From Corynebacterium lipophiloflavum DSM 44291 (GTDB lineage: Bacteria; Actinomycetota; Actinomycetes; Mycobacteriales; Mycobacteriaceae): a stretch of DNA of 34,549 bases. Below the pieces are notes generated by a model that worked only from the letters and a program-made list of their open reading frames with translations, ran no database searches and was not told the origin of the DNA. Of the stretch, positions 6,520 through 33,848 are shown piece by piece (position 1 is the stretch's first letter; every line of letters starts with the position of its first letter). Made by a program: the position numbers and the translations under genes. The stretch is taken from assembly GCF_000159635.1 (NCBI RefSeq), contig NZ_GG667195.1:1-34549 (forward strand). Direction: 5' to 3'.

Positions 6520-6532
6520 CTACGCCCTTCGC

Positions 6533-6605
6533 CCTAAACCCGGACGCCAGGAACTTGCCCCGGGTTTAGGTGGAACCGGCCCATGTTGACCCGTCCGGGT
6601 TTAGG
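6533..6605. repeat. Palindromic intergenic repeat, copy A
   Basis: A 73-bp imperfect palindrome between the convergent thrB and acyl-CoA synthetase genes. The outer arms begin CCTAAACCCGGACG (6533) and end CGTCCGGGTTTAGG (6605). Read on the minus strand, 6605-6560 matches copy B at 33754-33799 in 40 of 46 bases. CCTAAACCC-type arms recur five times from 6533 to 6633 (6533, 6560-6570, 6592-6605, 6610-6619, 6619-6633). The last two lie inside the 3' end of the acyl-CoA synthetase gene and supply its stop codon and final residues NPDA. There is no run of T, so it is not a standard intrinsic terminator, but its position between gene ends fits a terminator or mRNA-stabilising role. Confidence 0.8.
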
Positions 6606-6614
6606 TGCACGGGT

Positions 6615-8342
6615 TTAGGCGTCCGGGTTTCGGTTACCCGGGCCGGGCAGCGCGATGATGTCGAATCGGTCGTTGGCCAGGTGCTTGCGCAGGTCCTTTT
6701 TGTCGAACTTGCCCACTGACGTCTTGTCGATGGTGCCCACGAATGTCCAGTACTCCGGGGCCATCCAGCGTGGCAGGGACTTCGACAGCTGCTTGCGCAG
6801 CCGCGCCGCGGTCTCGGCGGTGGGTGCGGCTTCTGACACGAGGACCGTGATGGCGAGGGGTCGCTCGCCCCACTGCGGGTCCGGGTAGCCGATCACGGCG
6901 CACTCGATGACCTCGTCGGCTTCCATGATGTGGTTTTCCACCTGTGCGGAGTAGATCCACTCACCTCCGGAGCGGATGACATCGCGGGCGCGGTCGTAGA
7001 GGGTCATGAAGCCGTCACTGGTCACAGTGCCCACATCACCCGTGCGCAGCCACCCGTCGGCGGTGAACGCTTCGCGTGCCTCGGTGACCTGCTCGCCGCG
7101 GAATTCGCCGGCGATCTCCCCGGCGTCCTGGGTGGGAGAGCGGTAGTAGGATGCGGCGACCATGTTGCCGCGCACTTGAATCTCACCCTGCGAGCGGTCG
7201 GTGGACGACATCACCTTGCCGTCGTTGACCACCCGGTATTGAAGCCACGGGGCGAAGCGGCCCTGGGAAATGCGGAAGGCGTAGCGCGCTTCACCGGATA
7301 CGCCCGACGGCGGGCGTGCCACAGTGCCCACCGTGGAGGTTTCCGTCATGCCCCAGACGTGGATGACGTCGACGCCGTAGCGTTCCTCCCACACCTTGAT
7401 CAGCGCGGGCGGCGCGGGGGAGCCGCCGACGAAGATCTCCGTCAGGCTCATGCGCTCCGGCGGGTTCGAGGAGTAGTGGATAATCAACTGGATCCACAAG
7501 GTGGGCACACCGTGCGCGACTCGCGGGTGCGTTGCCGCGATCAGCGCCGCCAGCGTCGGGGCGGACACGTCGGAATCGGGCAGCACCAGCGGCGTGCCCA
7601 CGAGGAACGCGGCGAACGGCACGCCCCAGCTCAACACGTGGTAGATGGGGATGCCGCACAAAAACGTCTCGCCGTGGGTGATCGCCATCGAATCGGTGGC
7701 GCGCAGCCCCATCGCCTCGAGCCAAATGGAACGGTGCGAATAGGCCACGCCCTTCGGCGCGCCTGTTGTCGCCGTGGAGTAGGCTAACGCGGCGGCGGTG
7801 TTTTCGGGCAGTTCCGGCCAGTCGTACACGGTGGAGCGGCCGTCGAGAAGCGACTCGTAGTTGTGCACATCGATGCCGTCGGGAAGCGCCGCGGCGAGCG
7901 AGGCCGGGAACTCGGCGCCGGTAAAACACACCGCCGTCACCAGCGGGCACAGCTCGAGCACGCGGCCGAGCTTGTCCGCGAGCCGCGGGTCGGCGACAAT
8001 GACCTGGGCCTCCGAGTGGTTGATCACGTACGCGATCTGATCCTCGACCAGCTGGACGTTCACAGGCGTGAACACGGCGCCTTTCGACGCCACCGCGAAC
8101 ATCACCTCGATGTGCTCCGCACAGTTGTACATCAACGTGGCCACGCGCTCGTCGCCGGTGATCCCGAGGTCGTCGTGAAGCGCGTGCGCGAAAGCGGCGG
8201 CGCGGGCGCCGATCTCCGCGAACGACGACTCCTCTGCCACCCCAGAACGCCACGTGGTAACGCGGGTGGTTGAGTGAATCGTCTGCCCGTAGGTGAGAAT
8301 GCGGGCGACGGAAAACGGCACCTCCTGCATGGTGGAAAGCAT
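6615..8342 (-). CDS. AMP-binding acyl-CoA synthetase (FadD/AlkK-like fatty acid-CoA ligase)
   Basis: Adenylate-forming enzyme of the ANL superfamily, 575 residues, expected to activate a fatty acid to acyl-AMP and then acyl-CoA. The ATP loop near residues 188-198 is YSTATTGAPKG, where most relatives have YTSGTTGxPKG. Later come the WGMTETS adenine motif, the hinge YDRARDVIRSGGEWI and the C-terminal GKFDKKDLR with the probable catalytic lysine. Flanking sequence (YSHRS after the loop, EFPE-like spacing) resembles the medium/long-chain AlkK group. The ATG at 8342 has TAGAGT 7 nt upstream, suggesting a leaderless transcript. A second ATG four codons in is possible. The stop codon lies within a repeat arm. 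Substrate chain length is not decidable. Confidence 0.9.
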   Translation of the reverse strand: MLSTMQEVPFSVARILTYGQTIHSTTRVTTWRSGVAEESSFAEIGARAAAFAHALHDDLGITGDERVATLMYNCAEHIEVMFAVASKGAVFTPVNVQLVEDQIAYVINHSEAQVIVADPRLADKLGRVLELCPLVTAVCFTGAEFPASLAAALPDGIDVHNYESLLDGRSTVYDWPELPENTAAALAYSTATTGAPKGVAYSHRSIWLEAMGLRATDSMAITHGETFLCGIPIYHVLSWGVPFAAFLVGTPLVLPDSDVSAPTLAALIAATHPRVAHGVPTLWIQLIIHYSSNPPERMSLTEIFVGGSPAPPALIKVWEERYGVDVIHVWGMTETSTVGTVARPPSGVSGEARYAFRISQGRFAPWLQYRVVNDGKVMSSTDRSQGEIQVRGNMVAASYYRSPTQDAGEIAGEFRGEQVTEAREAFTADGWLRTGDVGTVTSDGFMTLYDRARDVIRSGGEWIYSAQVENHIMEADEVIECAVIGYPDPQWGERPLAITVLVSEAAPTAETAARLRKQLSKSLPRWMAPEYWTFVGTIDKTSVGKFDKKDLRKHLANDRFDIIALPGPGNRNPDA

Positions 8343-15833: not shown

Positions 15834-15940
15834 TGAGGTATCCGCGTGCGCACCTGTGCGTTGGCGGGGATTTAACTTCAAGGCTCCCCCTGTCCCGCGG
15901 TCGCTGATGTGCGACGGAGTCCGCCGCGGAGACAGTCTTC

Positions 15941-16822
15941 TTGAAGACGTCCATCGCACCGCATTTCAACCGTTATGCGGCCCGAGAACGGGAGAGAACG
16001 CTGAGCGTTACAACTTTGGCCGAGGGCTTTAAGGGGTCATTCCACGCGCCCTCACTTGGTCCAGAATTTTTCCCGGGGCAAACGTACGGCCACATCATTG
16101 GCGAAGACTTCGCCAATGGTTGGTTCGCACTGGATCGCATCATGATCGTCCGCCTCCTAGTGGCGGCAATCCTGGTGCTTCTCTTTGTTATTGCTTTCAG
16201 GAAGCCTCAGCTGGTTCCTAAAGGCTTGCAGAACGTCGCAGAGATGGGTGTGGACTTCGTCCGCATCAACATCGCTGAAGACACGCTAGGGAAGAAGGAT
16301 GGCAAGCGGTTCCTTCCGGTGCTGGCAACCATCTTTTTCACGATCTTGTTCATGAACGCGGCAACGATCATCCCGGGGCTCAACATTTCGCCAAACGCGC
16401 GTATCGGCATGCCGATCGTCCTGGCGGTTGTGGCCTACATCGCAATGATCTACGCAGGCGTGCAGCGCTACGGCGCGAAGTACTTCAAGCACTCGCTCGT
16501 GATCCCTAACTTGCCTCCACTGCTCCACCTCCTGGTGGTGCCAATCGAGTTCTTCTCGACGTTCGTTCTGCGTCCGGTCACACTGGCACTTCGTCTCATG
16601 GCGAACTTCCTGGCAGGCCACATCATCCTCGTCCTTTTGTACTCGGCTACCAACTTCTTCTTCTGGCAGCTGAACGCATGGACGGCCGTGAGTGGTCTGA
16701 CGCTAATCGCAGCCTTGCTGTTCACCCTGTACGAGTTGATTATCATCTTCCTGCAGGCGTACATCTTTGCTCTTTTGACCGCGGTGTACATCGAGCTGTC
16801 GCTGCACGCTGATTCGCACTAG
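15941..16822 (+). CDS. atpB: ATP synthase Fo subunit a
   Basis: Membrane subunit a, which forms the proton half-channels beside the c-ring. The 293-residue frame has about six hydrophobic helices. The essential arginine is Arg218 in TLALRLMANFLAGH, matching Arg210 of E. coli. The start is unclear. TTG at 15941 has GGAGA 8 nt upstream. An in-frame CTG at 16001 follows GGGAGAG at good spacing and would give MSVTTLAEGF, closer to the expected N-terminus. No ATG or GTG exists near the start. The preceding region carries a GlxR-like site and the gene leads the main atp operon. Confidence 0.95.
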   Translation: MKTSIAPHFNRYAARERERTLSVTTLAEGFKGSFHAPSLGPEFFPGQTYGHIIGEDFANGWFALDRIMIVRLLVAAILVLLFVIAFRKPQLVPKGLQNVAEMGVDFVRINIAEDTLGKKDGKRFLPVLATIFFTILFMNAATIIPGLNISPNARIGMPIVLAVVAYIAMIYAGVQRYGAKYFKHSLVIPNLPPLLHLLVVPIEFFSTFVLRPVTLALRLMANFLAGHIILVLLYSATNFFFWQLNAWTAVSGLTLIAALLFTLYELIIIFLQAYIFALLTAVYIELSLHADSH

Positions 16823-31813: not shown

Positions 31814-32614
31814 GTGGTCAGAGTCAATGACGCGCGCCTCGCCAGCACGGTCATCCTGACACGTGACGGGGCTAGCGGCCTCGAGGTGTGGGTGTTCGAG
31901 CGCGTGATGTCCATGCCCAACTACCCGGGCATGACCGTGTTTCCCGGCGGTGGGGTGGACAGCCGCGACTTCCCGTCGCGAGCGGGGGCGGAAGACTTGT
32001 GGCAGGGCCGCTCCGCCGAGTCGCTGGGCCGTCAGCTGCAGGTCAGCGCTGAAACTGCGCACGCGCTGCTGTTTTCCGCCGTGCGGGAGTTGTTCGAGGA
32101 AACGGGCACGCTGTTGGCCGTCGACAAGCACGGTGCCTTGCCTGTCGACGCGCGCCCCTTCCACAGCCAGCGTCTGCGCCTGGAATCTCACGAGTTGTCG
32201 CTGACGGACGTTTTGCGCGACAACCAGTTTCGCGTTCCCGCAGACCTTGTCGCGCCGTACGCTCGCTGGGTCGGCCGTTCCGAGCGAGGTACGAAGTTCG
32301 ACACGTTCACGTGGCTGGCTCAGTTGCCCGAGGGCCAGGAACCAGATGGCGCGACCGAGGAAGCCGACGATGCGAACTGGTTTCCGCCGGGCCTGCTTCT
32401 CGACGGCTGGCGCGCCGGGCTCGTGCGCTTCGCCCCGTCGACGTGGGCGCAGATCCTCGACATGTCCAACTTTGACACCTCCCAGTCCCTGTGGGAGGCG
32501 GCGAAAGGCGCGGACATGACGCCGATTACCGACGACGCGATCAGCAACCCTCGGTACGCGGAATTTTTCACACTGCGCCCGGAAGACCGCATCGGGAGAC
32601 CCTTTGAGCTTTAA
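31814..32614 (+). CDS. Nudix hydrolase with an interrupted Nudix box (NUDT19-like)
   Basis: A 266-residue Nudix protein whose box is split: the front half FPGGGVD (43-49) and the back half AVRELFEETG (89-98) are separated by about 40 extra residues. The same kind of insertion occurs in the NUDT19 group of CoA diphosphatases, and the later FDTFTWLAQLPEG region also fits, so a CoA or acyl-CoA substrate is a reasonable guess. The start is GTG at 31814, preceded by AAGGAGGTGAT (31798-31808), a near-perfect match to the 16S 3' end. Its stop overlaps the next start by 11 bp. Confidence 0.85.
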   Translation: MVRVNDARLASTVILTRDGASGLEVWVFERVMSMPNYPGMTVFPGGGVDSRDFPSRAGAEDLWQGRSAESLGRQLQVSAETAHALLFSAVRELFEETGTLLAVDKHGALPVDARPFHSQRLRLESHELSLTDVLRDNQFRVPADLVAPYARWVGRSERGTKFDTFTWLAQLPEGQEPDGATEEADDANWFPPGLLLDGWRAGLVRFAPSTWAQILDMSNFDTSQSLWEAAKGADMTPITDDAISNPRYAEFFTLRPEDRIGRPFEL

Positions 32615-33758
32615 CCTGTCCGAGGTGGCTTTTCTCGCCGCCCACGCAGACGAGATCGATGAGGCCGCCGCCGAGGTCGCACTGACCAAGGCGTCGGTGT
32701 TCGGGGACCGTGCCCTGCTCGCATCGCGCTTCGACGACAACGCCCGCGCTGTGATGGAGCTGATCGGCGCACGCCGGTCGGCCGCCGGCAAGCTACCTGC
32801 GGGCTGGTTGACGGACCTCGACGCGGCCCAGCAGGCAACACCGGCGCCGGTGGCGCACGTGCGCGCGCAACGCATCGCGGACAGCGGGGCGCGTGTGGTC
32901 CACGATGTGACGTGCTCCGTGGGCACCGAGGCGTCAGCCTTCGCAGGGATGGACTGGCTCGGTTCGGACATCGATCCCGTGCGCCTGGCGATGGCGCGCT
33001 ATAACCTCGGTGCAGGTGCGTGGCTAGCGCGGGCGGACGCTCTGGCCCCCGTCGCCCGCGGCGCGGTCATCGTCGCCGACCCAGCCAGGCGCGCCGGGGG
33101 CCGCAGGATCACCGACCCCGCGCAGCTCGTGCCCCCGCTGCCGGAGTTGCTGGACGTCTACGAGGGGTGCGACATGGCGGTCAAGTGCGCGCCTGGTATC
33201 GACTACTCCGCCTGGGAGGGTCTGGTGAGCGTGGTTTCCGTCGACGGGGCCGTGAAAGAGGCGTGCCTGTACACGCCGGGGCTCGCGGGCGGGCACACGC
33301 GCGAGGCAGTTGTGTTGCGCGGCGATGGGTTCACTGAAACCGTGACGTCGGGTGAATCCGATGACGTGCCGGTGGGCGCGCCGGGAGCCTTCATCATCGA
33401 GCCGGACGGGGCAATCATCCGCGCCGGTCTGGTGCGGCACTGGGGTGCGCGCCACGGGTTGTGGATGCTCGATGAGCACATTGCGTTCCTGAGCGGGGAT
33501 CGTATCCCCGCTGGATACAGCGGTTTCCGGGTGCTCGACGCGGTGCCGGTGCGCCAGCTTAAGGCCGCTCTGTCCGGCTACGGCGCCGGCGGGGTGGAAA
33601 TCCTCGTGCGCGGGGTCGACGTCGACCCCGACCATTTGCGCGGCAGGCTCAAGCTCAAGGGCGGCCGGCAAATGGGGGTCGTGATTGCGCGCGTGGGCAC
33701 AGGCGCGGTGGCGTACGTGTGCGAGGCACGTCAGTGGGGGCAGCGGCCTTCCGCCTAA
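32604..33758 (+). CDS. THUMP-like class I SAM-dependent methyltransferase
   Basis: A 384-residue protein with a helical N-terminus (1-95), a Rossmann methyltransferase core with motif I DVTCSVGTE (101-109) and acidic SDIDPVRLAMAR (121-132), DPARR (159-163) where DNA and protein methyltransferases often have NPPY, and a C-terminal THUMP-like region (about 300-384). THUMP domains bind RNA, so a tRNA or rRNA target is likely but unproven. The TTG at 32604 has GGGAGA upstream and overlaps the Nudix gene, coupling translation. The stop codon TAA lies inside repeat copy B. Confidence 0.85.
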   Translation: MSFNLSEVAFLAAHADEIDEAAAEVALTKASVFGDRALLASRFDDNARAVMELIGARRSAAGKLPAGWLTDLDAAQQATPAPVAHVRAQRIADSGARVVHDVTCSVGTEASAFAGMDWLGSDIDPVRLAMARYNLGAGAWLARADALAPVARGAVIVADPARRAGGRRITDPAQLVPPLPELLDVYEGCDMAVKCAPGIDYSAWEGLVSVVSVDGAVKEACLYTPGLAGGHTREAVVLRGDGFTETVTSGESDDVPVGAPGAFIIEPDGAIIRAGLVRHWGARHGLWMLDEHIAFLSGDRIPAGYSGFRVLDAVPVRQLKAALSGYGAGGVEILVRGVDVDPDHLRGRLKLKGGRQMGVVIARVGTGAVAYVCEARQWGQRPSA

Positions 33759-33825
33759 ACCCAGACGGGTCAACATGGGGGTGTTCCACCGAAACTCGGC
33801 CTATGTTGATGCGTCTGAGTTTCGG
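33754..33825. repeat. Palindromic intergenic repeat, copy B
   Basis: A 72-bp imperfect palindrome: a 26-bp arm at 33754-33779 (starting CCTAAACCCAGACG) pairs with 33800-33825 at 21 of 26 positions around a 20-nt loop. Its first 46 bp match copy A (6605-6560, minus strand) at 40 positions. It fills most of the gap between the methyltransferase and the cysteine desulfurase genes and contains the methyltransferase stop codon. Confidence 0.85.
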
Positions 33826-33848
33826 GTGAAGCGTTACCGGAGCGTCGA

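Follow-up and report, generated by a model that had tools for sequence, protein, structure and literature searches.

MITEs are short non-coding palindromic repeats present in several to dozens of copies per genome, and at the ends of IS200/IS605 and other elements with subterminal hairpins, the hairpin is recognised by a nuclease. The REP/RAYT REPtrons and the TIRtrons are described as dispersed palindromes, located mostly between genes and close to their ends, where they can provide a stop codon; they occur as singletons, doublets and clusters, with each enzyme gene flanked by its own repeat type and different genes by different repeats (PMC3733652). REPs are given as 20-40 nt long, with a GTAG/CGTC tag at the foot of the hairpin (PMC3733652).

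The elements described here, designated R1, were encountered as two copies, A and B, in Corynebacterium lipophiloflavum DSM 44291 (genome G000). Like REPtrons, the R1 system is dispersed, intergenic and located near the 3' ends of genes, with an enzyme gene flanked by its own repeats. Unlike REPtrons, its enzyme is a DUF559 protein of the PD-(D/E)XK class rather than a HUH tyrosine transposase, and the elements, mostly 60-140 nt in length (about 87 nt in R1), repeat a motif inside each arm at a step of 14 or 19 nt. They share with MITEs their non-coding palindromic form, their copy numbers and terminal inverted repeats, which are formed by the U1 and U3 arms, but no target duplication was seen around the gene units of the R1 system; from IS200/IS605 they are set apart by nested palindromes and by the lack of a Y1 transposase in G000. 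Copies A and B are members of a dispersed multi-motif palindrome that probably forms one system with a DUF559 nuclease gene, located elsewhere in the genome between inverted copies.

Both copies lie in the window, the whole stretch of 34,549 nt that was analysed (Table 1). A first-pass annotation had proposed that they share sequence and an arm-loop-arm design and sit directly at gene ends, and all three proposals hold. Read directly, the reverse complement of 6560-6605 is identical to 33754-33799 at 40 of 46 bases, the core GACGGGTCAACATGGG is exact in both copies, and copy B is a palindrome with 26-nt outer arms and a loop of about 20 nt. Its arms at 33748-33779 and 33800-33831 are 78% complementary, with 20 nt between them, and a DNA search related copy A to copy B at 78%. 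With up to two mismatches allowed, the 16-mer GACGGGTCAACATGGG occurs only in copies A and B within the 2.39-Mb genome (the reversed pattern, as a control, gave 1). A covariance model supplied better bounds for both copies, and both fold into hairpins on each strand better than 198-200 of 200 dinucleotide shuffles, with z scores on the two strands of -4.8 and -4.4 for copy B and -3.3 and -3.1 for copy A.

Table 1. Features of the two R1 copies, in window coordinates
Feature	Position	Strand	Basis
Copy A, R1-type dispersed palindrome	6526..6612	-	covariance model match G000:C73, E 1.0e-24; among the model's own sequences
Copy A unit U1, outer left arm (element orientation)	6595..6610	-	pattern match, 2 mismatches
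Copy A unit U2, in loop	6560..6575	-	pattern match, 0 mismatches
Copy A unit U3, outer right arm, opposite orientation	6528..6543	+	pattern match, 2 mismatches
Copy A 14-nt-step motif array, extending past the 87-nt element	6585..6634	-	direct repeats, spacing 14, 14
Copy B, R1-type dispersed palindrome	33747..33832	+	covariance model match, E 7.2e-24; among the model's own sequences
Copy B unit U1	33749..33764	+	pattern match, 2 mismatches
Copy B unit U2, in loop	33784..33799	+	pattern match, 0 mismatches
Copy B unit U3	33815..33830	-	script scan and sequence
Copy B within-arm repeat at 14 nt: TAAAC 33756, TCAAC 33770	33756..33774	+	sequence

Two features are absent from that annotation. What it called the loop contains the outer motif a third time, which makes the element read U1>, 35 nt, U2>, about 32 nt, <U3. 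A typical element thus has three occurrences of the motif, whose sequence is close to TTCCRCCTAAACYCGG: U1 at the left, outward, U2 in the loop in the same direction, and U3 at the right, reversed. Additionally, two further motif copies follow beyond copy A in exact 14-nt steps (6599/6613/6627), and the step is openly displayed there by GTTGA at 6585, GTTTA at 6599, GTTTA at 6613 and GTTTC at 6627, read on the plus strand. Two ORFs converge on copy A, their ends 6 and 2 nt away from it: a GHMP-kinase gene, which we take to be homoserine-kinase-like, and an AMP-binding-enzyme gene. The ORF upstream of copy B (32604-33758, a THUMP-like-domain gene) takes its stop codon from the copy, namely the TAA within CCTAAACCC (33756-33758), and a class-V aminotransferase gene follows downstream. 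The divergence of the inner half, ascribed to copy A, is partly apt: this half varies among many copies, and the trait is not peculiar to A.

The suspicion of a dispersed family proved right, and copies A and B are not the only two in their genome: the element of about 87 nt occupies 8 places in G000 and 58 distinct places in 6 of 242 Corynebacterium genomes (8 in G000, 13 in G020, 14 in G126, 10 in G148, 8 in G168 and 5 in G064). The survey applied the covariance model to the 242 genomes at E <= 0.001 with stricter filters, and the places were counted by hand. The model was built from 14 copies, 8 from G000 and 6 from G020, which match by construction; a DNA search of the own genome found 5 places, which the model raises to 8. 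The consensus of 37 copies begins CnCTCCCCCTAAACCCGGAC and, by eye, extends for about 87 nt. Placed against mechanically called ORFs, these 37 copies are mostly between ORFs and near 3' ends, as the position of A and B had suggested, with 14 in tandem, 13 in convergent and 4 in divergent settings and 6 inside a called ORF.

Pairing is conserved among the further copies, as the earlier reading had anticipated. The outer arms U1 and U3 covary, with 38 cells of compensatory change compared with 22.8 in shuffles that ignore the relatedness of copies, none of 500 shuffles being as high. The U2-U3 pairing is weaker, its paired-cell share being reached by 8 of 500 shuffles and its covariation score by 31 of 500, so a bistable switch is not claimed. 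The alignment used for this comparison holds 37 of the 42 distinct places retrieved, out of 58; the five left out are two duplicates of other copies, one that carries an insertion, a truncated copy and a weak one. At one locus of G020 (L101, G020:1648668-1648753), U2 has been swapped for another sequence, while the distance from U1 to U3 is kept.

Several known classes were compared with these elements and rejected. No Rfam 15 family reached its gathering threshold at the window elements or in two sets of 20 loci, and CCTAAACCC does not seem to fit the attC motif of integrons. Neither an HUH gene (Y1_Tnp, PF01797) nor a RAYT was found in the own genome, with 5 of 14 control genomes positive. 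The comparison with REPs or MITEs made at first sight is thus apt for the dispersal and the look of the elements; strict REP membership is rejected, as there is no RAYT gene, no GTAG/CGTC tag and a length of 87 rather than 20-40 nt, while MITE status receives no support from target duplication. That the family did not appear to be a described one agrees with the Rfam result and with searches of open-access papers, which brought up none that describes it: among the papers listed, no title or opening of an abstract links DUF559 or Vsr-like nucleases with dispersed palindromes, although a subscription paper is possible, and none of those listed on REP-like elements of Actinobacteria or Corynebacterium describes an R1-type system.

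The main point, which the first-pass annotation could not see, is an enclosed DUF559 nuclease gene. Two R1 copies of opposite orientation lie about 1.07 kb apart in G000 (C76:231674 and 232741), and likewise in G020, G126, G148 and G168, enclosing in each of these 5 of the 6 R1 genomes a single gene of about 304 codons with a DUF559 domain (PD-(D/E)XK, Vsr-like). The G000 nuclease (L005) scores 25.1 bits against PF04480, above the cut-off of 20.6. Searching with the enclosed protein gave matches in 144 of 242 Corynebacterium genomes at 1e-10, of which the top five are exactly the enclosed genes of the five strong-R1 genomes, with 60-100% identity. The sixth, G064, has weak copies only and lacks a protein match at 1e-10, which is what orphan elements would be expected to show. 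In all five genomes the gene adjoins rnpB, the RNase P RNA gene, indicating that it moves rarely or never. A distant DUF559 lineage with its own palindromes (L233, G157:C1) is also located beside rnpB, like L005, L185, L186, L187 and L188; the shared neighbourhood may be a hot spot or an old common position. In G126, an inverted R1 pair also encloses another gene, which by appearance looks like two separate insertions.

A profile search of solved structures matched the C-terminal part of the nuclease to 3hrl, an endonuclease-like protein (E 9e-9). With the DUF559/Vsr-like nucleases (PF04480; PDB 3hrl) the enclosed protein thus shares the C-terminal domain and the acidic/lysine motif, and it differs from them by an extra N-terminal part of about 200 residues. 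Five pullulanase entries at E 0.13-0.32 were taken as chance matches. An NCBIfam search with the nuclease gave no match, and a search for viral relatives gave 29 pattern matches, none of which was confirmed. In tests of seven other homologs against PF04480, L268 and L199 scored above the cut-off and L216, L233 and L385 below it, while L282 and L408 gave no row. The residues E, D, E-x-D-G and K, to which the family assigns a presumed catalytic role, are kept in 30 of 31 enclosed homologs; because all 67 unenclosed homologs keep them too, one K excepted, they do not mark out enclosed genes. The exception among the enclosed proteins is that of G000, with G for the E of E-x-D-G (L005, G000:C76, ORF starting 1643, codons 237-246, IIGIDGKSKY), a position that is E in 97 of 98 homologs and in the G020 nuclease. 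The G000 enzyme may therefore be inactive, in which case the G000 copies are now just inherited.

The same arrangement recurs at other DUF559 homologs. The flank repeat score reached at least 50 in 25 of 98 Corynebacterium homologs (450-nt flanks) and in 25 of 40 homologs elsewhere in Actinomycetota, compared with 0 of 495 control ORFs. At a score of at least 34, the counts were 32 of 98, 32 of 40 and 14 of 495, and the higher control rate at this laxer threshold gives the threshold of 50 the lead. Mismatched flank pairs reached 50 in 2 of 1500 cases for the genus and 1 of 1500 elsewhere (3 of 3000 for both sets together), and 34 in 16 of 1500 and 21 of 1500, respectively. ORFs in repeat-rich 20-kb stretches reached 50 in 5 of 262 cases and 34 in 6 of 262; the five comprise 4 DUF559 genes and 1 DDE transposase gene. 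The latter, set in flanking repeats at L365:7504-9105 (G012) and absent from the matching G110 region, is an ordinary insertion sequence and served as a positive control.

The 100 genus homologs were hand-picked among the matches listed, mainly the best, and 98 were scorable at the 450-nt flank; the first 20 were viewed before the rest were chosen, and none was selected or dropped by its flanks. The control ORFs come from one neighbourhood (thrB) in 80 Corynebacterium genomes. Beyond the genus, 396 sampled Actinomycetota genomes were searched with a profile, and 112 of them contained homologs at 1e-12; the 40 that were scored head this list, with one at the end of a contig passed over in favour of the next. 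The downstream flank was started at the stop codon for these 40 and at the match end for control and genus scoring.

The matched flank stretches are mostly 60-140 nt long and palindromic, a few being just 27-43 nt, and their sequence differs between protein lineages, with types replaced wholesale. On the tree of the 98 Corynebacterium homologs, 67 of which have no matching flanking pair, the enclosed state requires 9 changes compared with 26.4 when shuffled, a clustering to which near-copies add. Dispersal was also seen wherever it was looked for: each of the 12 other Corynebacterium elements tested, out of about 32 enclosed genus homologs and in 14 genomes, recurs at sites remote from its gene, and G000, the negative control, gave 0 matches. 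Among the matches listed, further copies range from two (the L202 type in G130 and the L258 type in G176) to more than 40 (the L282 type in G109). The L282-type copies often form doublets or triplets spaced 165-206 nt apart, with clusters at 859041/859243/859449, 1280589/1280754 and 463148/463341, and resemble in this the BIME clusters of REPs.

Although their sequences differ, unrelated elements follow a common rule: a short arm motif is repeated at 14 nt in Corynebacterium and at 19 nt elsewhere. Each arm was compared with itself and the profiles of the upstream copies were pooled. In Corynebacterium (20 non-redundant elements, 4 of them R1), recurrence peaks at 14 nt with z 6.6 and 3.9 for the two arms, and in other Actinomycetota (29 elements) at 19 nt with z 7.7 and 6.7, while in the pooled profiles z stays at or below 2.5 for every other offset between 6 and 35. 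Without the R1 family, the 14-nt peak persists at z 5.8 and 4.8 (16 elements). For R1 itself, the left arm gives z 8.1 at 14, while the right arm peaks at 15 (z 7.6) with z 4.1 at 14, relatedness inflating both arms. As a control, 139 palindromes from Corynebacterium gave z -1.0 at 14 and 1.9 at 19, peaking only at 6, 12 and 18, a pattern that codons would give. Examples within single arms are CGAGCGGGCACG, found twice at 19 nt (L418), and AAGTGCAGACCT, found twice at 14 nt (L268). Taken one by one, 12 of the 20 Corynebacterium elements have their best offset at 14, and 14 of the 29 others have theirs at 19. An arm-by-arm direct-repeat test, taking the smaller p of the two arms, reached p<=0.05 in only 21 of 59 elements; single elements are less clear, so it is the pooled profile of the upstream copies that carries the spacing rule.

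A rival account of such hairpins is that they are terminators or mRNA-end structures whose association with a nuclease is incidental. Strong hairpins near stop codons would suit it, but neither element body in the window carries a T-run, the single weak terminator call (6610-6625, compared with 0.4 expected) falling at the extra units of copy A. Other observations speak against it too: the copies are homologous over about 87 nt, some lie upstream of genes, the pooled spacing is 14 or 19 nt, and none of the 495 control genes is flanked in a similar way. This leaves the account very little credence.

The copies have been gained or lost on the scale of species, as filled and read-through sites indicate. 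G000 and G020 both carry the 342-kb element, at a site that reads through in G168, G148, G173, G126 and G064; at the site of the 362-kb element of G148, an element is found in G148, G000, G020 and G126, while the sequence is uninterrupted in G168, G173 and G064. The flanks of 13 elements were searched, and the read-through was followed for 4 sites, where insertion junctions are unreadable because the spacers between species are too diverged. Target-site duplication was not evident, direct repeats of at least 5 nt surrounding 3 of 61 gene-plus-element units, compared with 1.4 by chance. Within about 96 kb of aligned blocks between G012 and G110 (about 91% identity), no element-sized insertion was found; the one indel of at least 40 nt is a 46-nt segment in G110 with a short hairpin, matched to no family. 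This insertion search covered the blocks only, and the breaks between them measure 1675, 325/1640, 235/1548 and 1714 nt. A comparison of G110 with G182 showed a single 54-nt indel and, within a tandem element, an assembly gap of N.

Such movement could be that of an insertion sequence, in which the gene and both palindromes constitute an autonomous transposon, the DUF559 protein is its transposase, and the solo palindromes are MITEs or relics. The location of the gene inside an inverted pair, the dispersed non-coding copies and the presence or absence of sites between species would all fit. This reading is nevertheless quite unlikely, given the lack of target duplications, the single site of the gene beside rnpB in all five R1 genomes and the lack of a recent solo insertion in the aligned blocks of close genomes; nor did a genome with the whole unit at two sites come up in passing. 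A selfish nuclease of the homing type, which cuts sites lacking the element so that repair from a filled site copies it in, would agree with mostly vertical inheritance accompanied by gains and losses between species, and a weak structural match of the nuclease to the mobile-intron protein 3r3p (E 0.09) points the same way. Homing is highly unlikely, however, because the copies occupy many unrelated sites in one genome instead of one homing site, and the shared motif sits in the element, not in its flanks.

A regulatory role deserves consideration, in which the DUF559/AbiEi-like protein binds DNA to control its own gene, with the dispersed palindromes as the sites of its regulon. AbiEi antitoxins bind repeats in their own promoter, and in one homolog from outside the genus the N-terminal half weakly matches AbiEi_1 (E 0.003, below the cut-off). 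One palindrome copy lies 57-362 nt upstream of the aligned start in the enclosed homologs, which follows from their selection; the pooled fixed motif spacing would suit a bound dimer, and the nuclease residues kept in unenclosed homologs mean that some other role of the family exists. The same residues would be needless for a pure regulator, though, and R1 copies are mostly found near 3' ends, with divergent settings the rarest. With a second copy behind the gene, and with sequence types swapped wholesale between lineages, a regulon of this kind is unlikely.

The simplest reading of the enclosed genes and their dispersed repeats is instead that each protein recognises the palindrome type associated with it and, by its action, spreads or maintains the copies. 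The N-terminal part of the nuclease would bind the repeated motif as a dimer or oligomer, and the two arms would be drawn together or extruded into a hairpin, with the strand form of the substrate also part of the proposal. The nuclease domain would then cut or nick at the element, and new intergenic copies, often behind stop codons, would arise by repair or copying of the cut DNA, while the two copies at the gene itself would keep the source next to the enzyme. In effect, the system would work like a REP/RAYT REPtron, for which a comparable mode of action has been proposed (PMC3733652), with an unrelated class of enzyme; besides the enzyme, the lack of the tag and the 14/19-nt rule set it apart. 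The vertical inheritance of the gene and of many copies makes it probable that activity is now low.

Beyond R1, it appears fairly probable that a phylum-wide class exists in Actinomycetota, in which DUF559 proteins recognise fast-diversifying nested palindromes through motifs at 14 or 19 nt and spread or maintain them. To a similar degree, such a class may be regarded as a non-homologous counterpart of REP/RAYT systems, with a candidate function for DUF559. Its enzyme shares no homology with that of the closest known systems; only if every pairing of a repeat with an enzyme were counted as one kind would it be a variant of that kind. The DUF559 family thereby gains a candidate substrate, which for enclosed members is written beside the gene and can therefore be tested protein by protein. 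If the reading is true, palindromes dispersed through bacterial genomes have at least two origins, involving enzymes unrelated to each other, and it would account for part of the hairpins scattered over actinobacterial genomes. The 14/19-nt rule and the swapping of motifs between lineages would also provide a natural series for the joint change of a nuclease and its DNA site.

Two minor observations may be added. The element types of L268 and L252 have similar inner parts and unlike outer arms (GGTCGTCGC...GACGACGCC compared with GGGCGTCGCC...GACGCCC), and their arms and core may be exchanged separately. In the window itself, positions 15890-16014 on the plus strand match the atpB RNA leader RF02916 with 115 bits.
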